From assembly GCF_900112935.1 (NCBI RefSeq), contig NZ_FONM01000002.1, positions 186,001-250,000 of the forward strand: a DNA stretch of 64,000 nt. The letters run 5' to 3'. Below, in pieces: positions 42,053 to 59,207 of this stretch. The stretch comes from Trichococcus pasteurii (GTDB taxonomy: Bacteria > Bacillota > Bacilli > Lactobacillales > Aerococcaceae). The notes under the pieces are model-generated. The model was not told where the DNA came from. It saw nothing but the letters and a program-made list of their open reading frames with translations, and did not search any database. The number at the start of each line of letters is the position of its first letter. The first letter of the stretch is position 1. The position numbers and the translations under genes are program-made.

Positions 42053-44602
42053 TTATTCTACTTCATCCAGAGCATCTTTTAGCTTATCGAAGTGGCTGAT
42101 TAACCAGTCGAAGTGCTCCTGATACAGTTCAGGATTATGGATGTCCTTTTCTTCGGAAAAGAGGATTCTTTTTGCGATGCTCTTTTCTCTGCTAGTGTAC
42201 CATTCCAGAGGAAAACCAAATATGTTTTCTATCTCAGCCTTATTCGATTCTAGTTTGGAAAAATACTCTTGTCGATTAACAAAAATTCCTATACGAAGTA
42301 TTTTCTCTCTGTAAAGCTGAAAGAAAATATAATAATTTGGGCTATCGACCGAAACATCATACCAATTGACATATGACGGTTTTCGAGATGCGATATCCTC
42401 TCCCCTCCCATTGTTCCGACAGTACTGGACAAAATTTGTCCAAAAATGCAATCTCAATTGTTTTAGATCAGAAAATCCGCTTGTTGTATCTGTAGGTTGG
42501 ACGATTGTCTCTTCAATTTCTGGCTCCGGTATTTCCGGCACGTCAGCTCGACCATCATTGACAAAGGATATGTGCAACAGTTCAATCATCTGTGCTTCAT
42601 CTTTAAATTGGATGTTCCAACGATTTTCAATGAACTTAAGAAGCTTAATACCACGTTTAAGTATACGCTGGGCATCCCAATCAGTTTGCCTGGATACTTC
42701 TATCTCTGAGTGTGACCCATCCTCATAACCCCGTCGACCAATGTTCTTCGAGGATTTTTTCTCTATAAAGCCGTCATTTTGCAAAGCAGAGTTCACACTT
42801 TGCGACAACGGCAATAAGTTACCTAGTGAACCAGAAAGAATTTTTATTTCATCTTCTGTGTACTGTCTGAAATGATTTCTCCAGTACAATTTTGTTGGTG
42901 TCTGAGGAAGGATATGTTCAATCGATACCTTATCTTTTTCAACTTTCGTAAATGGTGTCCACCCAAGTTTTTCTATCCCTGTTTCCTCAGCCTTCTTATA
43001 TTCGTATTCAAAGAGTAAATAGCGCAGATCGCGCCAATCATAGAATCCTCCACCATTTGAAAAACGTCTATCCGTCCTCGTAATAAAACTATTAATAGAG
43101 TTATCCATGTCATTTGTGGCAGTGGTGATCAAGGATGCGGTGACTTCGCTTAAGAATAATTTGCCGGTATAAACATCACGAGTCTTGCGATAATATTCGC
43201 TGCTTTGATAACTTGACTGTGACGCTGCCATTCTGAATGACAAGAAAATAAAACGTTCAACAGCTCGGAAGAACTCGATACGTTCTTCTGGTGTGGTATT
43301 TGCATCTGGAGTTAATGCTGCTGCGACAAGTGGTCTGAAATAGCCAATTCCTATACGATTTAGGCGTTCGATCCAAACTTTCTCTTCGTGTGTCATATCA
43401 CTCTGTTCAGGAAAGAACGTGTAGAACCAGTATTTTGCTACGCTTTTCAAGCTATTAACGTAGGCTGCTATTTCCTCAGGCTCTAATTTACTGATGGCGG
43501 TTATTATCTCAGACTCAGTAGATTGTAGAACCTCATCGTTTTCTTCAATATCCAAATCAATAATTTCTGCTGTTTCCTCTTCAATAGCAACAATCTGCTT
43601 CGCAAAAACGTTCTTTGCTGAAAACTTATTGAGGAGAAACTTGATGTAATCATCACCTTTTTTGCGAGAATATTGGAAATACATAATCCAATGTGCCCTT
43701 AAGAACTCATCGTCGGATAGCGGTGAATTCTGATTTCGACCAAGTTGGTAGTATACCTCTTTCCAGGCCTCATTAATCTGTTTGCGTAATTCAGCTTTGT
43801 CCATTGCATCCAATTTATCACTATCATAAAGTGTTGTCAGATAAATCAGCCGATTCTTCAAAAGTTCGAGATTAGTCAGTTTTTTACCACGATTGTTCAT
43901 TGTTTCAAAAGCCACAAAAACATCATACTCATCTTCAATCTCATGGATATTAAACATGAGTTGGAGCGTAATTTTACGAAAAATACCCTCTATACCATCA
44001 ATTCCATCGGAGACATACAGTTTTTCCAAACAATCCCGAAAGAACTCTTTTGCATACTTCAGGTTTTTTGTGTAATAGGTTTCATTCACTGTCCCACTGA
44101 ACGGCTCTTCAAATATTTTGTAGGTAAGATAATCTGCACTAGGGTTATCACTCTCATACCCAAAAAGGTAGGTTGTAATTAGGTTTTGCGGTGGCCGTTT
44201 CTGTGAAATGTACTTCGAACGGATAGCCTTCAAAGTCTGATAACAAAGAACGATTTCCTCATCCGTCTTACCTTCATTACACTTTAACCCTTCGAGAAAA
44301 GCGACAATCTCATTTACCAAAATGGAAAAAGTTGTAAGTCGCTGCTGTCCGTCAACTACATGAAACGCTTTATAACCAGAATCAAGTAACCATGTATCGT
44401 TGTTCCAGCTCTTTGATTCAGTTTTTGCGACAGCTTTCAATGATAATAATCCAGTATAATGATACCTGTCTTTCTGCAGATTCAAGATATCATCCCAGAA
44501 ATCCACAAGCTGCTCCTGCTTCCAAGCATATCCCCTTTGATAATCTGGGATACGAAACAATTTATTTTGATACAATTCCGACAGTGACTGCAAATCGCTC
44601 AT
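42053..44602 (-). CDS. DUF262-DUF1524-DUF4268 protein (GmrSD-like type IV restriction enzyme)
   Basis: An 849-residue cytosolic protein. The N-terminal DUF262 domain has [11 protein letters not shown] (about 17-27) and the nucleotide-linked DGQQRLTT (84-91), as in GmrS and DndB-related enzymes. The middle DUF1524 domain carries the His-Me nuclease motif [10 protein letters not shown]. The C-terminal part (about 700-849), with [13 protein letters not shown] and the closing [15 protein letters not shown], fits DUF4268. GmrSD enzymes cut DNA with modified (glucosylated) cytosines using NTP, so an anti-phage role is likely but not shown. It lies alone on the minus strand at the island edge. Confidence 0.85.
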
Positions 44603-44979: not shown

Positions 44980-47900
44980 TTATTCTGCAACACGGTCGGT
45001 CCTATATGCTTCTACGTATCCTCGTCCATACATCGCCCGATTCACTATGAAGTTAAATACGATCTCTGATTTTTGTTTAAAGACCTGTTTATCATAGGAT
45101 TTTGGCAACTTTTTATCTAATATTTCCTCAATCTTGTTTTTGACTCGCTGCTTAGGCTGTTCATCTTTAAACCAATCCACGCTTAATAAATGTACATTGT
45201 CCATCGTCAAGGAATTGTATAATTGACTTGCTGCAGATTTAACTTTTTTTTCTTCTTCTTTAGTCAGTGTTTCTTTCATTAACAAATCAAATAGTACCAA
45301 TTCTTCTTCTGATAAATTCTCCTTAGCAGCGCGTTTATCCTCATCTTGAAGATCTTTTATGAATTTTTTCAATTCTTCAAAGTAGTTCTCATTTGATGTT
45401 GCACCTGCATTATAACCTTGGACAAGCTTCTCGTATCGTTGGGCAAATGACATGCGAGTCTCATTCTTTTCTAGCATTTTAGCAAGTTTTTGCTCGATAA
45501 ATCCTCTTAACTCAGCGATATCAATATTCATATACTGTGACGTTCGAATCTTGTTAATAACCCTCTCAACATCCAAATCTGATAATGAAATCACTTTGTC
45601 ATTCTCTTCCAAATCTGCTATTATTGAAAATTTTAAATGTTCTGATTTTACGCTTGTATCTAACAACTCTTCCACTTTGATTTGGGCATCGTCGATTTTT
45701 TCACTTCTGACTAAGTTTCTCATCATTGAAGCGATATAACGAATAAGCTTATAATATTTATTTTCCCAATGATAATCAAAAATCTCTGGCCTGGATGCAT
45801 CATATACATTTTTAAGTAAATTTGCGTAAATAGTGAATTGTGCTTTCGTTTCATCTGTTGCTAAAATAGCATTTACAGCAGCATTGATCCTTGCTGTTTT
45901 ATCAAAAACATCTTGCACATCCACAATAGTCTGAATGTCGATCCCTAGACTCAAACAAAAATCTACCGCTTCATGTTGGGTTGTACATAATAATTCTATC
46001 AATGCTTCAACCTCTTTAACAGGCATTTCAAATTCATCACCACTGCCACTCGGAGTTGCGTAATCATTCAGCGCATCTTTCATATAGTGGAAAATATTAA
46101 CGTGATCAACAATAAGTCCATTAAGCTTCTCACCACGCTTCTCATCTGAATACACACGATTTGCCCGAGCAATTGCTTGCATCAAAGTGTGTCCTTTCAT
46201 AGGTTTATCAAGATATAGAGTTGAAACGGATGGAGCATCAAATCCCGTAAGCCACATCGCTGTAACAAACACTAATTGTAGTGGATGATCTGGATCTTTA
46301 AATTGATCTTCAATATCTCTTCCCTCATTATCTATAAGGTTCATGCGCTTACGATGCTGAACAATATCCAAACCAACTCGTTCGAATTTTTCTTCTTCAC
46401 CATTCTCTTCACTTACAATTACTGCCATTTCAACGCTGTTCATAAATCTACGTTCAGAAAGGAGGCCAGCTTTTACTTCATTGGACTCAGCTTTTGTAAT
46501 CTCTGTATTCAGTTCTAGTAATCGCTTCTTCCAATGTTTTTGGACTTTTTCATACATCATAACAGTAGCAAACTTATCAACAGAAATTACCATACCTTTC
46601 CCTAAAAAACCTCTTTTAGGAAAATGTTTTACTACATATTCGGCCACTTCATCAACTCTGCTATCACGTTTTAGGACATCCAATGAATTCCTATAACGAC
46701 TTTCCAACGTATTTTGTTCTTCGTCAGTTAAGTTTTCATTTTCAATAATTGATAAAAAGTCATCATTCAGTAAATCATTGTTTAATTCCACTGTAGGTAC
46801 TTTTTTAGAGTAATACAATGGCACGGTTGCCCCATCTTTGATGGAATCCGCAAAATTGTATTCGCTAACATAATCTCCAAAGAACTGATTGGTTAGGCGT
46901 TTAGATCCAAGTAACGGTGTGCCTGTAAATGCGACATATTGTGCATTAGGAAGCCCTGTGCGCATATTTTCTGCTAATTCTTTATACTGGGTTCTATGAG
47001 CTTCATCCACAATTACAATGATATCTTCACGAGTTGATAGTAATGGAAATTTTGAGTCATAATCAGAACGGAACTTATGTATCAAAGTGAAAATCATTGA
47101 TGTATTACTCTGTAACATTTCACGGAGATGACTCCCACTTTTTGCTTTCACAGCATCTGAATCTTGAATAACCCCTGTCCGAACAAAGTTCTTAAGCAAC
47201 TGAGTATTCAAATCGTCGCGATCCGTTATCATCAAAAAAGTATAATTACCAGAGTACTTACGACGTATTTTACGCACATACATAACCATTGAGAAGCTTT
47301 TACCACTTCCTTGCGTATGCCAGAAAACACCAAGTTTACCATTTTTACCATCTCGATTTTTGAATGAATCAATCGCATTATTCACACCAATAAATTGATG
47401 GCTTTTAGCGACAATCTTAGTATCTTTATTCAAATAAAGAATAAAATTTTCAATGTAATCTATTATTTTTTCTTTAGGCATTAATCCTTTAATCAAATAT
47501 TGTAAGGAAATCTCATTATTATCAATCATTTTTCGATCAATTTTCTCTTCCTCATTATTCACCTTCAACCATTCAAAGTAATGGGAAAAGCTTGAATTAT
47601 AGCTTCCAGCTTTAGTTTGGTGCCCGTTTGAAATTATACATAGTTGATTAAAGAAAAATAGCTGAGGAATATCATGTTTTTGATTAATCAGGTTGTACGT
47701 ATATCCTAATTGTACATTTTCACTTGGTTTCTTCAATTCAATCCATACTAAAGGTAACCCATTAATATATACCAAGATATCTGGTCGACGGTAACCATAC
47801 TCACCATCAATCCAAACTTGTCTAGCAACAGTAAAAGTATTATTCTTTGGATTCTCATAATCAATCAAATTCAAATATTCAATCGTTTCCTTACTCTCTC

Positions 47901-48225
47901 TTCTAAACTTTACCTTAATTCCGTTTAATATATCTTGGTATCTTTCATAGTTTTTATCTTTCAATAATTTTGAGTTTAAAGAAGCGTCCTCAATAATAGC
48001 TTTAGCTTCATCATGGATGATTTCTTCCGGAATTTGAGGATTAATTTCTTTTAGAGACTGAATTAACACTTGTGACAGTACTACCTGATCTTTATTTGTT
48101 CTTCCAGTTGAATCTTTTAGGTCCTCTCTATTGGGTGTATAAGCATCAATTAAATTATAGCCAAGAGATTTAAACTCCTCCATTGCCCTTACTTCTAAGC
48201 TATCTTCTGTAACTATATCCACCAT
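44980..48225 (-). CDS. hsdR: Type I restriction enzyme, HsdR subunit
   Basis: A 1081-residue motor and nuclease of a type I R-M system. The nuclease site is P148-D149 with E163-x-K165 (YRRPDI and WIELKKP). The helicase has Walker A HTQGSGKS (about 303-310), DEAH in VDEAHRTQYKELAEN, and AIARANRVY in motif VI. It translocates DNA after HsdMS finds an unmethylated site. ATG with AGGAG upstream. It lies on the same strand as hsdM and hsdS, but the silent hsdS cassettes sit in between, so it probably has its own promoter. Composition is clearly A+T rich. Confidence 0.95.
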   Translation of the reverse strand: MVDIVTEDSLEVRAMEEFKSLGYNLIDAYTPNREDLKDSTGRTNKDQVVLSQVLIQSLKEINPQIPEEIIHDEAKAIIEDASLNSKLLKDKNYERYQDILNGIKVKFRRESKETIEYLNLIDYENPKNNTFTVARQVWIDGEYGYRRPDILVYINGLPLVWIELKKPSENVQLGYTYNLINQKHDIPQLFFFNQLCIISNGHQTKAGSYNSSFSHYFEWLKVNNEEEKIDRKMIDNNEISLQYLIKGLMPKEKIIDYIENFILYLNKDTKIVAKSHQFIGVNNAIDSFKNRDGKNGKLGVFWHTQGSGKSFSMVMYVRKIRRKYSGNYTFLMITDRDDLNTQLLKNFVRTGVIQDSDAVKAKSGSHLREMLQSNTSMIFTLIHKFRSDYDSKFPLLSTREDIIVIVDEAHRTQYKELAENMRTGLPNAQYVAFTGTPLLGSKRLTNQFFGDYVSEYNFADSIKDGATVPLYYSKKVPTVELNNDLLNDDFLSIIENENLTDEEQNTLESRYRNSLDVLKRDSRVDEVAEYVVKHFPKRGFLGKGMVISVDKFATVMMYEKVQKHWKKRLLELNTEITKAESNEVKAGLLSERRFMNSVEMAVIVSEENGEEEKFERVGLDIVQHRKRMNLIDNEGRDIEDQFKDPDHPLQLVFVTAMWLTGFDAPSVSTLYLDKPMKGHTLMQAIARANRVYSDEKRGEKLNGLIVDHVNIFHYMKDALNDYATPSGSGDEFEMPVKEVEALIELLCTTQHEAVDFCLSLGIDIQTIVDVQDVFDKTARINAAVNAILATDETKAQFTIYANLLKNVYDASRPEIFDYHWENKYYKLIRYIASMMRNLVRSEKIDDAQIKVEELLDTSVKSEHLKFSIIADLEENDKVISLSDLDVERVINKIRTSQYMNIDIAELRGFIEQKLAKMLEKNETRMSFAQRYEKLVQGYNAGATSNENYFEELKKFIKDLQDEDKRAAKENLSEEELVLFDLLMKETLTKEEEKKVKSAASQLYNSLTMDNVHLLSVDWFKDEQPKQRVKNKIEEILDKKLPKSYDKQVFKQKSEIVFNFIVNRAMYGRGYVEAYRTDRVAE

Positions 48226-48320: not shown

Positions 48321-48923
48321 ATGAGTAATGAAATAAATGATAATTTAGCACAGCAGGCGCAAGTAATATACGCATCCACCTTCATAGTTAATGCTAACCC
48401 AAGCTGGGAAAAGGGGCAACTGAGAGATTTAATAACTGTTAAGTATGGAAAAGACCATAAAAAGCTTATAGATGGCAATATTCCAGTTTATGGCTCTGGC
48501 GGTATCATGAGGTACGTTGAACGTCCTCTATACACGCAAGAATCTGTATTGATACCACGAAAAGGAACCCTCAACAATGTGATTTATGTGAATGAACCAT
48601 TTTGGTCAGTAGATACGATGTTTTATACCGAAATGAAGATGGAGAATGTTGCCAAATTCGTCTATCATTTTATTAGTAATAAAGACCTTGGTGCTATGAA
48701 TGCTGGATCGGCAGTTCCAAGCATGACAACAGACATACTGAATGCAATGTTGGTTAGTGTACCTGATGCTAAAACACTTTCATTCTTTGAAAGTACCACC
48801 GCACCTATATATGCACAAATCCGTGGCAATACTGTTGAGAATAAAAAACTCGCTGAATTCCGCGATACCCTGTTACCTAAACTAATTTCCGGTGAGATTG
48901 GCATGCCAGGAATCGAATATTAA
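48321..48923 (+). CDS. Silent HsdS C-terminal half cassette (cassette D), plus strand
   Basis: A 200-residue frame that holds only the second target-recognition domain of a type I specificity subunit: INDNLAQQAQVIYAS at the start, GDVL-like SVLIPRKGT, and the end RDTLLPKLISGEIG. The complete HsdS nearby ends in a matching RDALMSKLISGEID. It is oriented opposite to hsdM and hsdS, has no ribosome site worth the name, and starts inside a 17-bp recombination site (48333-48349). It is flanked by a second, inverted site at 48927-48943. Flipping it would join it in frame to cassette C. It is therefore best read as stored sequence, not an expressed gene. Confidence 0.85.
   Translation: MSNEINDNLAQQAQVIYASTFIVNANPSWEKGQLRDLITVKYGKDHKKLIDGNIPVYGSGGIMRYVERPLYTQESVLIPRKGTLNNVIYVNEPFWSVDTMFYTEMKMENVAKFVYHFISNKDLGAMNAGSAVPSMTTDILNAMLVSVPDAKTLSFFESTTAPIYAQIRGNTVENKKLAEFRDTLLPKLISGEIGMPGIEY
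48333..48349 (+). repeat. Recombination site s1 (plus orientation)
   Basis: ATAAATGATAATTTAGC, encoding INDNLA in phase at the start of cassette D. Confidence 0.8.
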
Positions 48924-49456
48924 GCCGCTAAATTATCATTTATCTGTTGATTAACCTTTATTTTCCCCTCAATGGCTTTATACAAATTAGCAATTTTATC
49001 TTGAATGTCCCTCTCTGGAAATTTAAACTCTAAATCTGCAATTACACTTGGTTTTATAGATGGGTAAGCTGAAGTACTATTTTCAGCGATAACTTGTAAG
49101 TAATTCGTCACTTTCTCCTGTGTTAATAAGATATACAGATAATAGGGATTAACCAATTGACTATTAGGAGTAATCGTTACAAACCCGGTTGATGCAACCA
49201 AATTTTGTACTGGTTGCTCTATTATTCCAAAATGTTTTTGAGTTGGCCGAACAGTCGAGACGAGAATATCATTAGGTTCGACTTTTCTTCTTGCACGACT
49301 AGGAATATTATTTTCCTTTCCATTCAAATCAATGTATTTAGCAATAAAATTTTCTGTGAGACTTGCAGTATCTAAATACCGGTATGCACCTATCATTTCG
49401 GCTTTTTTGTAGCTCTCTTTATTTAAAATTGCAATTTCACTCACCTTTTTTAGCAC
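48920..49456 (-). CDS. Silent HsdS N-terminal half cassette (cassette C)
   Basis: A 178-residue frame with one target-recognition domain and the central conserved helix, ending QQINDNLAA at a stop created just beyond a recombination site. ARRKVEPNDILVSTVRP and STGFVTITPN are typical of N-terminal HsdS halves. The start is a GTG 14 bases after the integrase stop, so it may be cotranscribed with the integrase and yield a truncated HsdS. It converges on cassette D, and their 3' ends overlap by four bases. Inversion of D at s1 and s2 would restore a complete HsdS. Confidence 0.8.
   Translation of the reverse strand: MLKKVSEIAILNKESYKKAEMIGAYRYLDTASLTENFIAKYIDLNGKENNIPSRARRKVEPNDILVSTVRPTQKHFGIIEQPVQNLVASTGFVTITPNSQLVNPYYLYILLTQEKVTNYLQVIAENSTSAYPSIKPSVIADLEFKFPERDIQDKIANLYKAIEGKIKVNQQINDNLAA
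48927..48943 (-). repeat. Recombination site s2 (minus orientation)
   Basis: Minus-strand ATAAATGATAATTTAGC, encoding INDNLA in phase at the end of cassette C; identical to s1 over 17 bases. Confidence 0.8.
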
Positions 49457-49470
49457 AAACCCACCACTTT

Positions 49471-50460
49471 CTAACCGATATATTTTCTGTGAGCCATTCT
49501 CACATTTGATTGACTCACCATTGCATAGTGCATTGTTGTATCTATACGCACATGACCAAGAAGCTTTTGTACTTGTTCAATTGGCATTCCCTTATCAATC
49601 GCCATAGTTGCCAATGTACGTCTAAATTTGTGAGGATGCACTTTATTTATTTTCACTTTATCTCCTAGTCGTTTAAGCACGTCTTCAACACCACCAATTC
49701 CTAAGGATCTATGAGGATACTTAAGTGATACAAATAGCGACTCATTCTCATCCACCCTCTGATTTAAATATTCACTAAGATGAATTTTAGCGCGAGCATC
49801 GAAGTACACCTCACGTTCCGCATTTCCTTTTCCAAGAACAACACAAGAACGATTGTGAAAATCAATATCACTTTTTTTCAACCCCACCAATTCTCCCACA
49901 CGTACTCCTGTCGAAGCAAAAAAATCAACTAGAGCTAAATCTCTTTTGTTTTCGCAGCAGTCTCGTAACAATTCCACTTGTTCATCACTGAAAGTTTCTT
50001 TTATCAATTTTGCTGTTTTCACTTTCCGGATGCGACGAACAGGGCTTTTAACGATGTAGTCCTCATCTTCTAGCCAAGAGAAAAAACTAGATAATATTCT
50101 TCTTATATTATCAATTGTTACCTTACTTGAATTATTTTTCTCTTGGTAATTTGATAAATAATTACGTAAATCTTCTGTAGAAATATCTTTTACCAACCGC
50201 TTAATTGTATCCAAAGTTTTATTAATGGTCCCTTGATAATATGAAATGGTTTTCTCTGAACAACCCTCGACTCGTTTTGATGAAAGAAAACTAGCTATGA
50301 AAAATTCATTTTCTTTATTGTGTGTAGTTTCTTCGGTTTTGATTACAGACAGTCCCATAAGACTTTCCTCAACACATTTCATAAACTTACTCAAGTCGCA
50401 ATTATTAAATATTCCATTTGCCTTTTGTTTTACTAATATTTTGAAATCCTCATTTGTCAT
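49471..50460 (-). CDS. Tyrosine recombinase (XerC/D-like), candidate hsdS invertase
   Basis: A 329-residue integrase-family recombinase. A SAM-like core-binding domain (about 70-160, with KTISYYQGTINKTLDTIKRL) precedes the catalytic domain. The catalytic residues are visible: Arg in STGVRVGELVGL, HPHKFRRT (H-x-x-R), LLGHVRIDTTMHYAMVS (second His and the nucleophile Tyr). The frame reaches 50550, but the ATG at 50460 follows GGGTGGG and fits family length. Placed between hsdS cassettes, it is the natural candidate to recombine the INDNL sites, as do the recombinases of other invertible hsdS loci. The direct role is inference. Confidence 0.9.
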   Translation of the reverse strand: MTNEDFKILVKQKANGIFNNCDLSKFMKCVEESLMGLSVIKTEETTHNKENEFFIASFLSSKRVEGCSEKTISYYQGTINKTLDTIKRLVKDISTEDLRNYLSNYQEKNNSSKVTIDNIRRILSSFFSWLEDEDYIVKSPVRRIRKVKTAKLIKETFSDEQVELLRDCCENKRDLALVDFFASTGVRVGELVGLKKSDIDFHNRSCVVLGKGNAEREVYFDARAKIHLSEYLNQRVDENESLFVSLKYPHRSLGIGGVEDVLKRLGDKVKINKVHPHKFRRTLATMAIDKGMPIEQVQKLLGHVRIDTTMHYAMVSQSNVRMAHRKYIG

Positions 50461-50498
50461 TGTGTATCCCACCCGTTTATGATGCATTATATCAAATA

Positions 50499-50515
50499 AT
50501 AAATGATAATTTAGC
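50499..50515 (+). repeat. Recombination site s3 (plus orientation)
   Basis: ATAAATGATAATTTAGC on the plus strand, four bases before the hsdS stop; identical to s1. If joined to an N-terminal half it would read INDNLAS and stop. Confidence 0.8.
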
Positions 50516-50518
50516 TTC

Positions 50519-51640
50519 TTAAAGATTGACATCGGAGACATCAATTTCACCAGATATAAGTTTTGACATCAAGGCATCACGAATTGACTGTAAGCGGATA
50601 TTTTCTGAATAGTTGCTTTCAATAACTGCATCCATTGGCTTAACAACCTTTTCAAATTGCTGGATGCTTTCCTTATGTGGAATTGTTATTGACATAGAAT
50701 TTAAGGCATCGCGGTTTATCGAACCGAATACAGTCCCTTCGCCATTGTAAACATTCAATTGATTGTGAAGTGAGAACATGGTATATAGCAAAAATGACTG
50801 TGCACCATCTTTGCTATGAATGGCACCGAGCCCACGACCGATACAGCAACGCTCGTATGCGACATTGAGATCACCCACAGGAGCCCGAACACTCATAAGA
50901 ACATCACCTCGTTCGGCCATTCGCGTCGGTTCGGTAGTATACAGTCTTCGTGTTGGGAATCGGTCTCCAAATTCACCGCGCCCCTGAAAGAAAACTTCGC
51001 CATTTCCGTCTTCGTTATAGCTTGTCCCACTTGGAGATTGTCCCATCGTGATGTTTGCAATATCTGCGAGAATACCAACCGGCCATAAACCATCGGCATT
51101 TCTTACAAACATTGAATCATACAATGCTTTCGCCTGTTGCACTAAATTATCATTTATTTTACCATTCACATTAATTTTACTATTAATCTGAAATATAATA
51201 TGAGCAATCTTAGTCTGCACTTCTATACTTGGTAAATCAATTTCATAATTCTGAATAGCTTGCTTATCCCCACGTGGCATCTTAGTTCCTTTAGCAGTGG
51301 CCGTCATGTAATTAAAGAATCCATTTGTTGCAAGAGTACAATATAAAAATTCTGGTACTACCAAATTCTTTGCTCGTAACACTAGGACGTCTGCCGAACA
51401 ACCACCCTTCTTATCAGAAAACCAAATTTTTTGAAAATATGGACGAATATTTGAAATTAAAACATCTTTATGTTGGAAAGAGTTGACTCTTTTAATAGAT
51501 GGAAGCTTTTCGGAGACAGTAACTCCAGATTTGTTTGCAATCATATTTTCTGTGCTAATGTAATTATTTGTAGTTATATTATCATATACATCAACTTTAT
51601 CAGATACAAATTCGCATATGTCCAAAAGCCTATATTTCAT
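50519..51640 (-). CDS. hsdS: Type I restriction enzyme specificity subunit (expressed, cassettes A+B)
   Basis: A complete 373-residue HsdS. The N-terminal target-recognition domain (cassette A, about 1-160) has FQHKDVLISNIRPYF and TAKGTKMPRGDKQAIQNYEI. The central helix ends at KINDNLVQQAKALYDS. The second domain (cassette B, about 195-373) has RGDVLMSVRAPVGDLN, and the end is RDALMSKLISGEID. Each domain reads one half of the bipartite target. It starts inside the end of hsdM (11-base overlap, GGAGGG before the ATG at 51640); the frame open to 51697 is not used. A recombination site lies at the domain junction and another just after the stop. Confidence 0.93.
   Translation of the reverse strand: MKYRLLDICEFVSDKVDVYDNITTNNYISTENMIANKSGVTVSEKLPSIKRVNSFQHKDVLISNIRPYFQKIWFSDKKGGCSADVLVLRAKNLVVPEFLYCTLATNGFFNYMTATAKGTKMPRGDKQAIQNYEIDLPSIEVQTKIAHIIFQINSKINVNGKINDNLVQQAKALYDSMFVRNADGLWPVGILADIANITMGQSPSGTSYNEDGNGEVFFQGRGEFGDRFPTRRLYTTEPTRMAERGDVLMSVRAPVGDLNVAYERCCIGRGLGAIHSKDGAQSFLLYTMFSLHNQLNVYNGEGTVFGSINRDALNSMSITIPHKESIQQFEKVVKPMDAVIESNYSENIRLQSIRDALMSKLISGEIDVSDVNL
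51142..51157 (-). repeat. Recombination site s4 (minus orientation)
   Basis: Minus-strand ATAAATGATAATTTAG, encoding INDNL between the two halves of hsdS. The next base differs from s1-s3 (T for C), but similarity to s1 continues through the CARCAGGCG that follows. Confidence 0.8.
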
Positions 51641-53300
51641 ATCCGAGCCCTCCAAGAATTCCTCTAATTTCTTCTTGAAGTTGAATAGATTCTGCAAATT
51701 GTTCTTTCAATTCAGCGGTTAGGCGTTCCATCTTTTCTTCAAATGGTTCACTATCTTCTAATTCTTGCTCAGCACCCGCATACATTCCTGGTGATAAACT
51801 CCAGTCTTTTGATTCAATACTACTTTCACCGGTAATTTTCACTACTCGGCATAATCCGTCGATGTCCAGATATTCACCATTCGGAAATTTTTCTTGAACC
51901 CAGTCGAGTTTAGATTGCCAGTACCCCTTATCTTCTGATTCAGCCATTTTGTCTATATACTGATCAATCAACTCTTTATATGCCTCGGAATTTCTTTGAT
52001 ACAATCGAGTTATTAAAGCTAAGTTTTGAATATGAGCTTCGTCAAACTTGCGGTGAGCACGATCAACTTGGGTGTATAATTCTTTCTTATTAGAATTGAT
52101 AAAAAGAATTTCGTCATTTTTTTTGGTTTTGTCAAAAAACCATAACGTAGCTGGTAGGGTTACTGTATTGAACATGTTTGATGGAAGAATGACAATTTGA
52201 GAAACATACCCGCTTTCAATTAGTCGTTTACGAATTTCTTTTTGTCCACCATCATTAGCTGTTGAGGCCCCATTCGGCATAACTAAAGCTGCTTTTCCAT
52301 TATCCTTCAAAGCCGTTATAAATTGATTAATCCAAAGATAATTTGCATTTGGTACTTTTTCTATTTCCGTACTTGAAGTTGAATTTCGCGGTACTCCGAA
52401 TTCATTGAATCGCTTTTGATTGGATACACGATCATATTCAACTCCTTTTACGTTAAAGGGTGGATTTGCTAAAACATAATCAAATTCTCCATAGCTATCA
52501 TATGGATCTTCATAAAATGAATTTGCTTGGACAATTTCTCCTCGCATATTATGTAAAAGTAAATTCAACTTCGCTAATTTAACTGTTGAAGGCTCTTTCT
52601 CAACGCCATAAGCGCGAAGATTATCTGGATCAAACCCATGCTTAGCTGCATAATGGGCCGATTGAACAAACATCCCCCCCGATCCACAAGCAGGATCTAA
52701 AATTTTCCCAGCAGTTGGTTGAATTACTTCAACCATATATTGAACTACCGAAGCTGGTGTATAGAATACTCCCCCACCTTGTCCTTCTGCCATCGCAAAT
52801 TCTCCTAGGAAAAATTCATATATTTCACCAAAGATATCAAATTTTCCATCGGTTGGAATGTCTTGGAAATTTTTTAATAGAATTTTTAAATTTGCAGCAG
52901 GTATATCACTATATTTTTCTTTAGGTAAGGTATCTTTAATAAAAGGAGCATATTTTTCGATTTCTTCCATTGCATAGGATATTGCCTTGGCTACAATATC
53001 CTCTTTTTCGGGAAGATTTAGCAAATATGAATACCGTGCTTTTTCAGGAACATAGATTCCTGCTTTTTCAATTGCTATTTCAAATATTTCAGCATAGGCA
53101 CGACGACCATCTTTGCGCACTTCGTATTCTTTATTAATTTCCATCTCAAATTTTGCATATTTAGCGTCAGCAAACTTCAAAAAAATTAATCCCAGGATGG
53201 GTTCAGCATAATCATGTGCACTTAAGTGAGAATTTGCACGCATATCCACCGCAGTTTCCCATAATTTATCCTTAATTCTCTTTATATCAATAGTATTCAA
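51630..53300 (-). CDS. hsdM: Type I restriction enzyme methyltransferase subunit
   Basis: A 556-residue adenine N6-methyltransferase. The SAM site is DPACGSGGMF and the catalytic motif IV is LANPPFNV. The N-terminal helical domain includes NSHLSAHDYAEPILGLIFLKFAD. Length is normal. The start is TTG (53300), seven bases after AGGGGA; no ATG is nearby. Its end overlaps hsdS, so the methylase complex is made from one message. It modifies host DNA with whatever specificity the current hsdS supplies. Confidence 0.95.
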   Translation of the reverse strand: MNTIDIKRIKDKLWETAVDMRANSHLSAHDYAEPILGLIFLKFADAKYAKFEMEINKEYEVRKDGRRAYAEIFEIAIEKAGIYVPEKARYSYLLNLPEKEDIVAKAISYAMEEIEKYAPFIKDTLPKEKYSDIPAANLKILLKNFQDIPTDGKFDIFGEIYEFFLGEFAMAEGQGGGVFYTPASVVQYMVEVIQPTAGKILDPACGSGGMFVQSAHYAAKHGFDPDNLRAYGVEKEPSTVKLAKLNLLLHNMRGEIVQANSFYEDPYDSYGEFDYVLANPPFNVKGVEYDRVSNQKRFNEFGVPRNSTSSTEIEKVPNANYLWINQFITALKDNGKAALVMPNGASTANDGGQKEIRKRLIESGYVSQIVILPSNMFNTVTLPATLWFFDKTKKNDEILFINSNKKELYTQVDRAHRKFDEAHIQNLALITRLYQRNSEAYKELIDQYIDKMAESEDKGYWQSKLDWVQEKFPNGEYLDIDGLCRVVKITGESSIESKDWSLSPGMYAGAEQELEDSEPFEEKMERLTAELKEQFAESIQLQEEIRGILGGLGYEI

Positions 53301-53761: not shown

Positions 53762-55123
53762 TTAGATGTTATTATAATTGACTGAAGTTTCATCATTTTC
53801 TTTCTTTGCTTCTTCAAATTTCTTTTTTGCTTCACCTATTGGCAAATCATCTATGAAGTATGAACTAGCAGCCTTTCCTATTGCAGAAGTACCAGTTGCA
53901 GCTATACCAGAACTTATTATTGAACCAGACGTCGGCCATACGAAGTTTAGAAATTTTGATGCCTGTTGCGCTACAAGCTTGAATACGTACCCAGCTCCCG
54001 CAATTCCACCCATACTGAGAATAAATTCTTTAGCAGTTTCAAGTGAAATATCTCTTCCACTTAATGAAGCTATTAGGGAAACCAAAACTGACTGAATTAT
54101 GAGCAGAATATAAATATCTGAAACCGGTATTGGTGTCAGTGCGACTGTTGCAGATATTCCGGAAAATAAATTGATCAGATGTTTTACGAGTCTGTCTACT
54201 ACTTCTTTTAGTCGTGAAGCCATCCTCAATCCCATTTGCGCCTCAAAATCTAGGATAGCTTCTTCCAATGCATCAAGTAATTCCTCGATCCTATATCTGC
54301 CATCAAAGTTTATTTGTAAATTATCAATATCGTTTTTAGGAAGATTTACAATGCTTTCGACATCAACTTCCATTCCATCCGGGGTCTGCCAATCTATCAA
54401 TGAAGAAACCGCAATGATATTATCTATCTTTAAACCATTCCTCACTATTATGCCTTTGTAGTATTGAACTACTTCGTCAATTTTATTAACTTTAATCTCA
54501 GGATATTCTTTTGGATTTTTGTACCGAGTTGGAGCCATTTCATCGCACTTATTTACTACTACGACAATCGGAAGTCTCAATTTATTTATCTCTGCATATG
54601 TTTTGGAAACTTTTTTGAGGAATTCAACATCTGAATTTACATCATCACGATGAGTACAATTTAACATCAAAATTGCGACATCTGGAGAGAATTCATTGAT
54701 TTGGTTAATTAACATCTCTTCTGCAGAAATTGTGTCGTCTAGCATTTCAGACTCAGCAATTCCTCTTGTATCCAGAATTTCCATTAGAACTCTGTCTTTA
54801 TCTTTGCATTCATACACCTGAGCACTTTCCGTACAGCTTTTAGTATCACTAACAATAGCTGTATACGCACCACACAAAGCATTAATTAAACTGCTTTTAC
54901 CTACGCCAGTTCTTCCTATCAAGAAAATTCTTGGAGGTCTGTGAGAGTCTATGCCGTCCATCAACTTTTTGAGATCTTTGTCACCAAGAATGTTATCCTT
55001 GAGCATTTCTCTTGTTTTTTCAGGAATTGCATCAGGTAACCCATCGATCATTTCACCTGCTTTAATGTAAAACTTTTTCATGCTCTGCAATCTTTGCTCA
55101 ATTTTCATTTTGTCATCTTTCAT
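53762..55123 (-). CDS. Era-like GTPase with C-terminal DUF697-like membrane domain
   Basis: A 453-residue protein. G1 is GRTGVGKSS (70-78), G3 is DTRG (118-121) and G4 is NKCD (191-194), so GTP binding should be intact. The C-terminal third (about 300-430) is hydrophobic, with VSDIYILLIIQSVLVSLIASLSG and a Gly/Ala-rich stretch, like DUF697 GTPases that associate with membranes. The frame begins at 55174, but the ATG at 55123 has AAGGAG upstream. It is a single-gene transcript between two restriction systems. Its role is unknown; membrane-linked GTPases do occur in some phage-defence settings, so a defence link is only inferred from location. Confidence 0.8.
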   Translation of the reverse strand: MKDDKMKIEQRLQSMKKFYIKAGEMIDGLPDAIPEKTREMLKDNILGDKDLKKLMDGIDSHRPPRIFLIGRTGVGKSSLINALCGAYTAIVSDTKSCTESAQVYECKDKDRVLMEILDTRGIAESEMLDDTISAEEMLINQINEFSPDVAILMLNCTHRDDVNSDVEFLKKVSKTYAEINKLRLPIVVVVNKCDEMAPTRYKNPKEYPEIKVNKIDEVVQYYKGIIVRNGLKIDNIIAVSSLIDWQTPDGMEVDVESIVNLPKNDIDNLQINFDGRYRIEELLDALEEAILDFEAQMGLRMASRLKEVVDRLVKHLINLFSGISATVALTPIPVSDIYILLIIQSVLVSLIASLSGRDISLETAKEFILSMGGIAGAGYVFKLVAQQASKFLNFVWPTSGSIISSGIAATGTSAIGKAASSYFIDDLPIGEAKKKFEEAKKENDETSVNYNNI

Positions 55124-55681
55124 TCTCCCGTGCTCCTTTTTGATATTATTTGGATATACATTAATGAAGTACACAAGCGGAAGATATACTTTTCTTCCGT
55201 TGACACAAATTACTTTTTCTTACAAGGACGACTTCAATATGCAGCCACTATTATAGACCTCTACACACGCAGCATCGTAAAAAATCGCTTTTTCACCGTA
55301 GTTCATCCTTCTTCCGTGTAAAAATCGTCCAGTGGATTTCAGGAAAGTCCTCAGTAATTTTCAATCCTCCAATTTAATAGTAATATTTTGATTTATACAT
55401 CCCAATTATAACAACCAACATGCAATTTATCTATGTTTATTTAATCATTTTTTAATCATAAATTTATATCGGAATAGTCAGTATTTTGAAGTGAAATTAT
55501 GCCAACCTACTTCTCTGAAGATATTCCAAGAATATTAACGATATTTCACAATACATTTCCTCCCTAGTGTCCCTATTATTCCTCGGTACAAATCATTCGT
55601 AGCTCATATAAGTATGCTAAAATAATAATGCAATATAAATTAAAAATTCTTAACATAAAAATGATTTGGGGAGAGATACAA
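55124..55681. other. Intergenic stretch with an IS remnant and the mcrB leader
   Basis: More than 500 bases of A+T-rich DNA between the divergent GTPase and mcrB genes. Apart from the transposase scrap listed separately, no gene is seen. -10-like TATGCT and TAAAAT occur at 55611-55623, but no good -35 accompanies them. Confidence 0.5.
55226..55321 (+). mobile_element. IS3-like transposase fragment
   Basis: The plus strand reads GRLQYAATIIDLYTRSIV, then becomes non-conserved and stops at 55321. YxAxIIDLYTRxIV is the hallmark of the DDE core of IS3-family OrfB proteins around the second aspartate. Only about 18 recognisable residues remain and no terminal repeats were found, so it is a decayed scrap. 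Confidence 0.5.
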
Positions 55682-58159
55682 ATGGATGAAACAATATCTA
55701 TACGGCAAATTGAAAAATTGCGTCGCGAATACAAAGAATATCTTAGTTCCACTAACCTAGGATGGAGCGAGCCTACTATTGCAACATACGCATCCGATTC
55801 ATTTTATGCTCTAAACAATAATATCGGAATAGATTTCTGGTCTTGCTTCATAGACGATGTATCGATGTTGGAAGCGCGTGATAAGATTAGCGACTTTCTT
55901 CGCCAAGAAAAAAAATCGGACCATGCTGATGAGCGGGCCAATAACTACCAAGAAGCTATGAAACATCTAAAAAAATTCTTGGATGAAAAATATCCTCTCC
56001 TTGCACAAGAATGGAGTGGTAAAGCCCTAAACAATACCTACTTAAAATCAGACTTCAAAAAATGGATGCACAAGCAAAAAAAATCCAACAACGAAGCTTA
56101 TTCAGCCAATACCATTACAACATATACAAACATGTTAAAAAATACCACCCAAAAACTTGAGCTAGGTGATCTTGTAGAGTCAGATTTGTTCTTCTACACT
56201 TTCCCAGAAGATTTTGAAGCAGCATACAAAATCATTACCAGTACAGATAACTTCAATGAAGTAGATGCTGCTGGTAAAAAATCGTATTCTAATGCGATGA
56301 CAATGTATTCTAAATTTTTAAAGGAACTTTATGAACCCTCTTGTTGGATTTTTCAAGGTAACCCTAAGTATTATAATGTTGTTGATGCAGTCAATGACCT
56401 TGCCACAATCACTTGGTCCGTCAATCAGTATCCTAAGCAAATAAAAGCCGGAGACAAAGCCTATATTTGGATTTCCGGCTCTGAGGGTGGTATCATTGCC
56501 ACCGGCAAAATACTATGTGATCCTGAAATGAGGGAGCCAGTTCAAAATGATCCCTATGCTCACGATGATTTTCTGAATCAAGCCCCTCACTTGGCTGTGG
56601 ATATAAAATTCGAAAAAAAATTGACAGCTTCCATTATTCTCAGAAAAGAGTTACTTGCTGACGAGCGCACCAAAAAATTAGAAATATTAACTTATCCGGG
56701 TGCTACAAACTTCCTTGTACTAAAGGAACAATATGAAGTGATTGAAAGCATGATTAACGGCAGCTACCAGAGACTTCCTGCAAGCCCATCGGATAATACT
56801 TTATCGACCCCTGTGGAAAAAAGACGTTACTGGATGTATGCTCCTGGTGAAGGTTCCTATATGTGGGAGGAATTTTATGAGAAAGGGATCATGGGGATTG
56901 GTTGGGATGATTTAGGTGACTTATCGCTTTATTCTTCCAAACAAGCCATGAAAGAAGAAATGAAATCGCTTTATGGTGATGTGAGTTCTTATAAAAATGC
57001 TGGGCATGCCACTTGGCAGTTTGCCAATGAACTGAAGCCTGGCGATATCGTATTTGCCAAATTAGGCATGTATAAACTTATTGGCCGTGGTATCGTAACC
57101 TCTGAATATATATTTGATCCTTCTAGAGAAAGCTATCGTCACACACGCAAAGTAAATTGGACCCATAAAGGCGAATGGGAATCCGAAAGTCAAAACGCTA
57201 TGAAAACACTAACTGACATCACACCTTTTAACGAGTATCATCAAAACATGGAAAATCTAATCTCTGAAGGCTATGAACCAAAAGATTCCCCTGCCGAATA
57301 TGACAGTTATTCTGAGGATGAATTTTTGGATGACGTATTCATGAGTGAGGAACGTTACACGACATTAAAGAATCTCCTACGCAAAAAGAAAAACATCATC
57401 CTACAGGGGGCTCCTGGAGTCGGAAAAACCTATGCAGCGGAACGGTTAGCACACTCTATTATGGGAGAAAAAGATTCCAGTCGTGTCATAATTGTACAGT
57501 TCCACCAAAGCTACAGTTATGAGGATTTCATCATGGGTTACCGCCCTAACAATAACAATAGTGGGTTTACTTTGTCATATGGGCCATTTTACGATTTCTG
57601 CAAAGAAGCGGAACCTGATGATAGAGAGTACTTTTTCATCATTGACGAAATCAACCGCGGAAATCTCAGCAAAATATTCGGGGAATTACTGATGTTGATT
57701 GAAAATGACAAACGCGGCAAAGAGGTTCGCTTGCTTTATTCGGATGAGCAATTCTCTGTTCCAGAAAATGTATACATTATCGGCATGATGAATACGGCAG
57801 ATCGTAGTTTGGCTATGATAGATTATGCATTACGCCGTCGTTTTGCATTTTTTGAATTTGAACCAGCGTTTGAGACGGAAGGTTTTAAAACATATCAGTC
57901 TACCATTGCCAACAACAAATTTGATAAATTGATTGAGACCGTATCATCGTTAAACAAAATCATTTCTGAAGATGCCTCCCTAGGTAGTGGTTTCCGAATT
58001 GGTCACAGCTATTTTTGTACGGGTGAGGTCGTAGATGATGCTTGGTTGTCAGATTTAGTGGAATATGAGTTCATTCCACTTATCAAAGAATATTGGTTTG
58101 ATGAACCTTTTAAGGTTGAACAATGGACATTAAATTTGCAGGGTGCAATTCATGGCTGA
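55682..58159 (+). CDS. mcrB: McrB-type GTPase with EVE and second PUA-like reader domain
   Basis: An 825-residue AAA+ GTPase, the DNA-sensing motor of a type IV (modified-DNA) restriction system. Residues about 12-105 and 121-218 look like two copies of one helical module (see findings). About 221-350 is an EVE domain (SCWIFQGNPKYYN, IKAGDKAYIWISGSEGGI), which in other McrB proteins binds modified cytosine. About 382-510 is a second reader-like domain (RYWMYAPGEGSYMWEEFYEKGI, LKPGDIVFAKLG). The C-terminal AAA+ has Walker A GAPGVGKT (576-583), FIIDEINRGNLSKIFGE and the McrB signature MNTADRS. The ATG at 55682 follows GGGGAGA; codons before it are not used. It overlaps mcrC by eight bases. Confidence 0.93.
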   Translation: MDETISIRQIEKLRREYKEYLSSTNLGWSEPTIATYASDSFYALNNNIGIDFWSCFIDDVSMLEARDKISDFLRQEKKSDHADERANNYQEAMKHLKKFLDEKYPLLAQEWSGKALNNTYLKSDFKKWMHKQKKSNNEAYSANTITTYTNMLKNTTQKLELGDLVESDLFFYTFPEDFEAAYKIITSTDNFNEVDAAGKKSYSNAMTMYSKFLKELYEPSCWIFQGNPKYYNVVDAVNDLATITWSVNQYPKQIKAGDKAYIWISGSEGGIIATGKILCDPEMREPVQNDPYAHDDFLNQAPHLAVDIKFEKKLTASIILRKELLADERTKKLEILTYPGATNFLVLKEQYEVIESMINGSYQRLPASPSDNTLSTPVEKRRYWMYAPGEGSYMWEEFYEKGIMGIGWDDLGDLSLYSSKQAMKEEMKSLYGDVSSYKNAGHATWQFANELKPGDIVFAKLGMYKLIGRGIVTSEYIFDPSRESYRHTRKVNWTHKGEWESESQNAMKTLTDITPFNEYHQNMENLISEGYEPKDSPAEYDSYSEDEFLDDVFMSEERYTTLKNLLRKKKNIILQGAPGVGKTYAAERLAHSIMGEKDSSRVIIVQFHQSYSYEDFIMGYRPNNNNSGFTLSYGPFYDFCKEAEPDDREYFFIIDEINRGNLSKIFGELLMLIENDKRGKEVRLLYSDEQFSVPENVYIIGMMNTADRSLAMIDYALRRRFAFFEFEPAFETEGFKTYQSTIANNKFDKLIETVSSLNKIISEDASLGSGFRIGHSYFCTGEVVDDAWLSDLVEYEFIPLIKEYWFDEPFKVEQWTLNLQGAIHG

Positions 58160-59207
58160 TCAAATCAAAATCAAGAATATTTACTATATGTTGTCTTATG
58201 CTTATCAGAATTTGAATGCAGGCCCATATAAAAATATCGATTTGGAATCCTTCAATAACATCCATGACCTTTTGTCAGCTATTTTAATCAGAGGCACCTC
58301 TATTCAGATAAAACGAGGATTACACCGTGACTATCTTGCCTACTCGGAAGATACCGGACGACTCAAAGGTAAAATTGATATTACTGAATCCATAAAACAA
58401 CAAACGATGATGAACAGAAAAATGGTTTGTCATTACGATCTTTTTTCAGAGGATACTAAACTCAATCAAATCTTGAAAGCCACTATGATGCTGTTACTTC
58501 GTCATGGTAATGTTAGCCCGAAAAACAAGAAGCTTCTACTCAAGCTACTTTTGTATTTCCAAAATGTTACGGCTGTTGATCCAATGCACATTAGTTGGAA
58601 CACTGTTAACTATCCAAGGAACAGCCCTTCTTATAAGATGCTTATTAATATTTGTCAATTGCTAATCCAAGGCATGCTGCTTTCAACCGAAAATGGTCAG
58701 TACAAACTACTGCAGTTCCTTGATGATCAGCAGATGTACCGTCTGTACGAAAAATTCGTTCTTGAATATTACAAAAAAGAATATCCTGAACTCAGGGCAA
58801 AAGCTTCCTATATCGACTGGAATATAGGAGGTGATGGGAACAAAATGTTTCTGCCTGCAATGAAATCTGATATTACGCTCACCTATGGCGTGAGAACACT
58901 GATAATAGATACAAAATACTATCAACGATCGATGCAGACACATACACTATTTGATAGCACCACGCTAATTTCTGGTAACCTTTATCAAATCTTCACTTAT
59001 GTAAAGAACAAAGATAAAGACAATACTGGCAATGTGAGCGGGATGCTGCTCTATGCACAGACTGCTGAAGAAATAACCCCTGATAATGACTACATAATGG
59101 GAGGAAACCATATCAGCGTTAAGACATTGAATTTAAATAGTGAATGGGAGAATATTAAAAGGCAACTGGATAATATAGCCGTGGACCTAGTGAATAAAAA
59201 AGGTTAA
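58152..59207 (+). CDS. mcrC: McrC nuclease subunit
   Basis: A 351-residue partner of McrB. The N-terminal part (IKIKNIYYMLSYAYQNL) matches McrBC 5-methylcytosine restriction subunit proteins. The C-terminal PD-(D/E)xK nuclease has D240 (MKSDITLTY) and D253-x-K255 (TLIIDTKYY). It should cut DNA once McrB has bound a modified site. The ATG at 58152 lies inside the end of mcrB, so it is coupled. A terminator follows. A diverged copy of its 3' end lies at 44660-44886. Confidence 0.93.
   Translation: MADQIKIKNIYYMLSYAYQNLNAGPYKNIDLESFNNIHDLLSAILIRGTSIQIKRGLHRDYLAYSEDTGRLKGKIDITESIKQQTMMNRKMVCHYDLFSEDTKLNQILKATMMLLLRHGNVSPKNKKLLLKLLLYFQNVTAVDPMHISWNTVNYPRNSPSYKMLINICQLLIQGMLLSTENGQYKLLQFLDDQQMYRLYEKFVLEYYKKEYPELRAKASYIDWNIGGDGNKMFLPAMKSDITLTYGVRTLIIDTKYYQRSMQTHTLFDSTTLISGNLYQIFTYVKNKDKDNTGNVSGMLLYAQTAEEITPDNDYIMGGNHISVKTLNLNSEWENIKRQLDNIAVDLVNKKG

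Follow-up and report, generated by a model that had tools for sequence, protein, structure and literature searches.

The DNA considered here is a stretch of 64,000 nucleotides from Trichococcus pasteurii (contig NZ_FONM01000002.1, positions 186,001 to 250,000), hereafter called the window, and the element in question is a Type I restriction-modification locus whose specificity genes (hsdS) are placed around the gene of a tyrosine recombinase. The genes follow each other on the minus strand in the order hsdM, hsdS A-B, recombinase, half-hsdS C and hsdR, while a further cassette, D, is stored in reverse between C and hsdR. Specifically, hsdM (51630..53300) encodes the methyltransferase subunit (Pfam N6_Mtase, 2e-72, and HsdM_N), and hsdS A-B (50519..51640) is a full-length specificity gene, composed of target recognition domain (TRD) A, a short core repeat and TRD B, with two Methylase_S stretches and with 5ybb and 3okg as solved relatives. 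Its start is most likely the ATG at 51640, which overlaps the end of hsdM, and not the TTG given in the list of open reading frames (ORFs). The recombinase gene (49471..50460) is intact and lies between the two hsdS positions; its product is XerA/XerC-like (Phage_integrase, 5e-32; NCBIfam XerA, 238 bits with a cut-off of 220). Its stop codon is separated by 14 bases from the first possible start of C (48920..49456; Methylase_S, 7e-8), a half hsdS made of TRD C and closed by INDNL-A-A-stop, which occupies a second expression slot on the operon strand. Cassette D (48333..48923, plus strand; Methylase_S, 1e-7; listed ORF start ATG 48321) is a second-half TRD, and one TTAA (48920-48923) is common to the stop codons of C and D. 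Cassette B also ends in TTAA and, after inversion, would provide INDNL-A-S-stop. In other words, the window holds one full hsdS, A-B, and one half, C. The restriction subunit is encoded by hsdR (44980..48225), characterized by HSDR_N and further HsdR domains (TIGR00348, 6e-146).

Around the recombinase lie four exact 16-bp copies of ATAAATGATAATTTAG in the orientation +,-,+,-. The first, s1, marks the start of cassette D (48333-48348, +), s2 the end of C (48928-48943, -), s3 separates the end of cassette B from the recombinase gene (50499-50514, +) and s4 separates TRD A from TRD B (51142-51157, -). These copies had been pointed out in the original prediction, made from the letters of the window, and their number and orientation are confirmed: in the whole assembly of 3,197,326 bases ATAAATGATAATTTAG occurs only at these four places, all inside this locus. 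The core pattern read backwards has no match in the whole genome, and shuffled versions of the window contain on average 0.08 core matches with two mismatches tolerated. The extent of 17 bp first given to the copies has to be adjusted, as exact identity spans 16 to 18 bp, varying by site pair. Similarly, the proposal that every copy encodes INDNL in the same phase stands for s4, s2 and s1, which are in frame within the ORFs of A-B, C and D, respectively; with ATG 50460 as the start of the recombinase, s3 falls outside any coding sequence. Each core is built from the arms TAAAY and ATTTA, flanking a 4-bp asymmetric centre; it is the single core type of the locus, in which no longer repeats were found. 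Two identical inverted core sets are present, one around each second-half TRD, as in the SsuCC20p-type system considered below.

A related recombinase (E 1e-40) is present in 11 of 149 genomes, that of the window being counted. Eight loci (L018-L025), distributed in seven genomes, have recombinases 51 to 62% identical to the one of the window beside hsdM- or hsdS-like genes, and six of them adopt the layout of the window, each with its own core: TAAACGAGAATTTA in L018, TAAATAAGAATTTA in L019, TAAACAATAATTTA in L020 and L021, TAAATGAGAATTTA in L023 and TAAACAAGAATTTA in L024. Four loci at about 33% recombinase identity (L026-L029) gave no match to the Hsd proteins of the window. A scan of genome contigs returned at least 547 confirmed relatives, of which 80 were kept, and more loci came from whole-genome searches and from one scan of viral contigs; searches at family and order level, centred on G472 and G351, gained few. 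In total, 147 loci were analysed, 18 others with recombinase DNA more than 97% like another's having been left out. By the names of its records, the family extends over Bacillota, Bacteroidota, one methanogen, one spirochaete and one proteobacterium; several of these records are metagenome-assembled.

Near these 147 distinct recombinases, a search based on the arms only provided 516 within-locus pairs of sites. The whole core is identical in 483 of them, compared with 700 of 5,995 between-locus pairs (12%), and 500 shuffles of the labels gave at most 86 identical within-locus pairs; reversed arms, used as a control, matched 0.16 times per locus. A separate flank comparison, in which core identity is 100% by construction, was excluded as evidence for the cores. 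The sequences adjoining the core have identities of 0.5-0.6 within loci and 0.4-0.5 between loci. Since the flanks are scarcely more alike within than between loci, the cores do not owe their identity to recent copying, and recent duplication as their source was rejected on these values. As for ordinary specificity subunits, HsdS controls were taken from relatives at 30 loci, three of which proved to be in recombinase loci of this kind; in the remaining 27 no core was found at the INxxL motif of the examined frame, while in one control, L207, a core-like match is present at another place of the stretch. As far as sequence can tell, the cores look like recombination sites. The resident recombinase, moreover, is complete as predicted: of 143 aligned relatives, 141 to 143 retain R, K, H, R, H and Y at the positions taken as catalytic in the tyrosine recombinase family.

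When all inversions between opposite sites were closed by script, 16 arrangements were obtained. Their full products are exactly the four specificities foreseen at the outset, A-B, A-D, C-D and C-B, and the rest are halves ending INDNL-A-A or INDNL-A-S. The neat truncated ends described in the original prediction are thereby recovered, that is, INDNL-A-A-stop in C and, in the inverted state, INDNL-A-S-stop from s3 read on the plus strand. Judging from the site halves, the order first half, cassette, recombinase block, cassette, end would be preserved in all 16 arrangements.

Invertible hsdS loci of pneumococci and mycoplasmas had been proposed as precedents, and the class is indeed the right one, but the closest known system is SsuCC20p of Streptococcus suis (mBio 2023, PMC10790761), whose layout, in the available parts of that paper, is that of the window. 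Its 14-bp cores, TAAATCATCATTTA and TAAATGATGATTTA, have a 4-bp centre different from that of the window core; the SsuCC20p core is also present in L111, L119, L144 and L158. In the sections of the report at hand, all S. suis assemblies with a complete locus hold a single complete hsdS, several alleles coexist within one culture, and alleles are fixed in the absence of xerD, switching being recombinase-dependent; furthermore, no intermediate molecules are described in one culture, the hsdS downstream of xerD is transcribed and takes part in methylation, and methylation changes accordingly (PMC10790761). The class, the rule of one full hsdS per locus and the active second slot are already known for S. 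suis; our counts of full and half genes were made before the comparison with that paper. Switching, which has been demonstrated for SsuCC20p, is predicted for the window locus. A further difference concerns HsdM and HsdR of the window, whose family departs from that of the other loci compared, a comparison which took in those loci and not the S. suis proteins.

The same parts as in the window are found in the Lactococcus plasmids pJM1A, pJM2A, pUC073A and pUCCL627F and in pRV500 of Latilactobacillus sakei. Their recombinases are 63-66% identical to that of the window over about 84% of the length (66% for Lactococcus), while the HsdM identities are 37% (Lactococcus L111) and 34% (pRV500). Unlike the window, the Lactococcus loci carry a DUF3800 gene and pRV500 has its recombinase block reversed. 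In the pneumococcal SpnIII/cod system, with PsrA/CreX, a tyrosine recombinase and inverted repeats likewise reshuffle hsdS; according to the portion of the literature available, however, it uses three different repeats (15, 298 and 85 bp) in place of one core type, and hsdSA alone is functional, the other genes being described as sequence sources (PMC7096588). The hsd locus of Listeria monocytogenes ST8 (PMC4783014) and LreRMII of L. reuteri (PMC6122466) resemble the window in having an integrase between two hsdS genes, and several arrangements are described between strains or clones. As far as these reports are accessible, they differ from the window in that two distinct pairs of repeats or conserved regions are employed, located at the 5′ end of hsdS and in its centre (PMC4783014, PMC6122466), and in ST8 also in the opposite orientation of the two hsdS genes (PMC4783014).

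It is highly probable that the window locus is a Type I specificity shufflon of the SsuCC20p kind, operated by the resident recombinase. The first-half TRDs that follow hsdM (A) and the recombinase (C) would stay fixed and represent two expression slots, and the two second-half cassettes, B and D, each between two cores, would lie behind the slots, one forward and one reversed. The recombinase would join cores, the preferred moves being those between slots, namely s1xs4 with s2xs3, or s1xs3 with s2xs4. The outcome would be one full hsdS (A-B, A-D, C-B or C-D), the other position giving a half protein that ends at the built-in stop. A reciprocal exchange of this type would keep one cassette forward and one reversed, leading to exactly four one-full alleles. 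The strain of the window probably switches.

The distribution of full and half genes was followed in the loci that can be compared. Removed from the 147 were 40 loci lacking a repeated core of this type, 26 in which the number of first-half exits is not two (L168 included), L036, L037, L093 and L105 (one exit beyond the contig or intermediate in length), L181 (other layout) and L080. Of the remaining loci, 58 have the window layout and 17 a reversed recombinase block. The first position is full and the second half in 29 of the 58, the reverse is true in 25, and four loci have two halves; one full and one half hsdS are found in 54 of the 58, and two full genes in none, as compared with 12.5 expected under independence (Fisher 3e-12). 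The 43 loci with all four cores in the orientation +,-,+,- give 22, 18, three two-half and no two-full cases (Fisher 2e-9). On the recombinase tree the one-full states change 21 times among 55 loci, with a shuffled mean of 18.5, and a larger tree agrees. Since the states are as scattered as shuffled labels, turnover is fast and the loci are close to independent draws. The notion that the second position is a silent store has to be abandoned, because in 25 of the 58 loci the sole full hsdS is the one at this position, which is active in S. suis too, at least in the accessible account of that system.

Related genomes had also been suggested as the place to look for rearranged cassettes, and cassettes have indeed moved among closely related loci. 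Four Lactococcus plasmids on one backbone display three arrangements, and three Lactococcus plasmids have identical accessions for HsdM, recombinase and HsdR. In particular, pJM2A and pUC073A, which are equal across 3,330 bases of the S region, carry A-X with Y reversed; pUCCL627F carries A-Y with X reversed; and pJM1A (L112) has a half A and a full C-X, with X in both slots in opposite orientations and Y lost. Exchange between plasmid copies could be behind the doubled X of pJM1A. On the whole, a cassette common at an identity of at least 96% but differing in place or orientation was found in six sets, and its slot had changed in five; the cassette is flipped in the other slot in L101/L109, L046/L055 and L070/L089, and not flipped in L103/L149. 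The one-full rule and the slot change in five of six sets favour exchange between slots, which we infer to be the rule in place of single inversion; the inversion of a single cassette breaks the one-full pattern.

A number of observations weigh against this account. In L052/L162 one cassette is inverted in place, and L101/L109 and L103/L149 have one cassette in common only (at least 96%). Among the two-half loci, L046, L117 and L167 are such by orientation (in the fourth, L056, the forward cassette is broken by an in-frame stop), and L168, with three first-half exits, holds two full and one half hsdS, the sole two-full case. The fourth site carries a mismatch in some loci (L101, L109 and L018), and the recombinase of the window is placed on a long branch of the tree, the nearest relative being 61% identical. 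In the 17 loci with a reversed block, where one full gene is automatic, the spare cassette fits the parity expected from exchange in nine, is contrary in six and undecided in two; the difference from the other loci (Fisher 0.003) is confounded by taxon, most of the reversed loci being Bacteroidota. Finally, a promoter-like TGnTATAAT is present upstream of the recombinase in the window, and in 70 such regions across loci this kind of signal is not enriched (TATAAT in 16%, 14% when shuffled; TGnTANNNT in 20%, 18% when shuffled). With frequencies so near to shuffled ones, a conserved promoter before the recombinase is not supported; promoter-like sites within the locus are likewise at chance level (18 vs 21).

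Some of these data bear on a different origin of the one-full pattern, namely independent toggling, in which s1xs2 and s3xs4 invert their own cassettes and selection removes the cells with two full genes or none. The spare cassette lying either way in the reversed-block loci and the cassette found in both orientations in L052/L162 point in this direction, and indicate that single inversions can occur. To this extent the single-cassette toggles of the original prediction, operated by s1/s2 and s3/s4, are retained as possible events, but not as the usual move, as two-full and two-half states are found in zero and four of the 58 loci, respectively, and the toggle states are absent from the S. suis assemblies too, in the portion of the report available (PMC10790761). 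Moreover, the slot changed in five of the six informative sets, and in the single-culture long reads described for S. suis, as far as the accessible text goes, there are none with several complete hsdS genes, which is hard to achieve via selection between cells (PMC10790761). Independent toggling is regarded as improbable, though it deserves consideration, and the one-full rule becomes a testable question, that is, whether it is due to reciprocal cassette exchange or to selection.

Alternatively, the half hsdS might be functional in its own right, self-pairing to methylate a palindrome, as in EcoR124I-delta50, EcoDXXI-deltaC and NgoAV, or acting as a partner of the full HsdS. Half-HsdS dimers are known in Type IC systems, in the part of the literature available (PMC3874165), and pairs of a long and a one-TRD HsdS are described for Staphylococcus xylosus and Bacillus licheniformis (PMC10030836, PMC12429846), although, in the same literature as far as accessible, an N-terminal half HsdS of S. 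xylosus gives no methylation. The half exits stop exactly two residues past the core in 63 of 94 cases (117 of 178 for all stop-type sites), a regularity that would suit a functional end but for which the TTAA shared by both strands at the cassette ends also accounts. In addition, the wild-type methylome of S. suis comprises two motifs, both bipartite and both attributed to the full-length HsdS (A and E), and no palindromic motif is reported in the methylation section of that paper (PMC10790761). A working half HsdS at this locus is hence unlikely.

Doubtful, too, is the possibility of a frozen relic, in which sites and recombinase persist and the locus no longer switches in this species: one arrangement is known in the species and the recombinase branch is long, but the locus has kept its catalytic residues, its four identical cores and every reading frame intact. 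The idea that the repeat merely reflects protein conservation, INDNL being a motif of the coiled coil that links the TRDs, agrees with the placement of the motif between both TRDs in the alignment to solved HsdS and can be discarded with near certainty, considering that s3 is outside hsdS, that identity ends at the core edges, that the core centre is identical within a locus and differs between loci, amino acid included, and that the core is absent from plain HsdS controls.

Beyond the proposed shufflon itself, the locus is peculiar in its partner enzymes. The comparison of HsdM and HsdR covered 83 loci, each having at least three sites. When L018 provides the query, its HsdM matches 77 of them (itself included) with a median identity of 66%, while that of the window matches 75 (itself included) with a median of 33% and 37% for the best other locus; the HsdR medians among these loci are 65% for L018 and, for the window, 29%. 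Ranked by score, the L018 HsdM is the nearer of the two for 75 loci and six match neither, L069 being the only one besides the window on the window side. In other words, HsdM and HsdR of the window fall below the identity seen among most loci of this layout, which concerns the partners and not the switch. L069, from Bacteroides clarus, is 26% identical to both HsdM queries and may hold a third partner family.

A check of HsdM neighbours covered two relatives. Within the plasmid collection, Acetoanaerobium noterae has the closest HsdM (55%; its HsdR 49%), in a locus with one plain hsdS of 412 residues and with neither recombinase match nor cores in 19.6 kb; the second nearest, from Haliscomenobacter (HsdM 45%), has one hsdS and no recombinase match in a stretch of 17 kb. 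Cassettes B and D, in turn, have counterparts of 72% identity in two shuffled loci, L093 and L084, respectively, L084 being from a Faecalibacterium sp. At E 1e-150 this HsdM is in no other of 13 genomes of the genus, and no plasmid was retrieved when the neighbouring addB was used as a DNA query. As the cassettes are like those of shuffled loci and HsdM and HsdR belong to another family, a graft of the hsdS-recombinase block is the simplest reading of the hybrid locus.

These data allow a broader, tentative proposal, which we consider plausible but would not yet favour. The hsdS-recombinase block might be a mobile module, graftable onto unrelated hsdM/hsdR genes, in which programmed reciprocal exchange of two oppositely oriented cassettes makes exactly one full gene inherent to the design, in organisms as distant as Lactobacillales, Bacteroidota and methanogens. 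The window locus would then be a graft caught in the act, with gut Clostridia-like cassettes (about 72%) and partner enzymes whose nearest relatives serve a plain hsdS. In the accessible part of the open-licence literature on hsdS inversion and truncation, neither a graft of the specificity block nor the one-full rule beyond S. suis was found stated. What is added here is the one-full rule across a wide family, plus the hybrid locus. A switch proven in one streptococcus is extended to a wide family. The hybrid, in turn, suggests that a specificity module can be combined with new partner enzymes, a point of relevance to Type I diversification.

Other layouts are found among the relatives. In L022 (5100-9838) the recombinase (57%) adjoins a fused methylase of 1234 residues with specificity domains, and direct repeats of 26-33 bases replace the inverted core, giving a different layout. 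The recombinases of L025 and of 38 further loci without a repeated core are clustered on the tree (10 changes, 30.8 when shuffled) and do not form one group; in L025 direct repeats flank the recombinase, which could mean excision and reinsertion.

As regards the surroundings of the locus, a GmrSD-like protein (GmrSD_N, GmrSD_C and DUF4268) is encoded beside hsdR at 42053-44602 of the window, on the minus strand, and, as this gene adjoins hsdR, the locus is part of a defence cluster. On the other side, a GTPase with DUF697 is encoded at 53762-55174, and an AAA protein with an EVE domain is followed by a McrBC-component protein (Pfam McrBC, 58143-59207), the two forming a McrBC-like pair at 55628-59207 on the plus strand.

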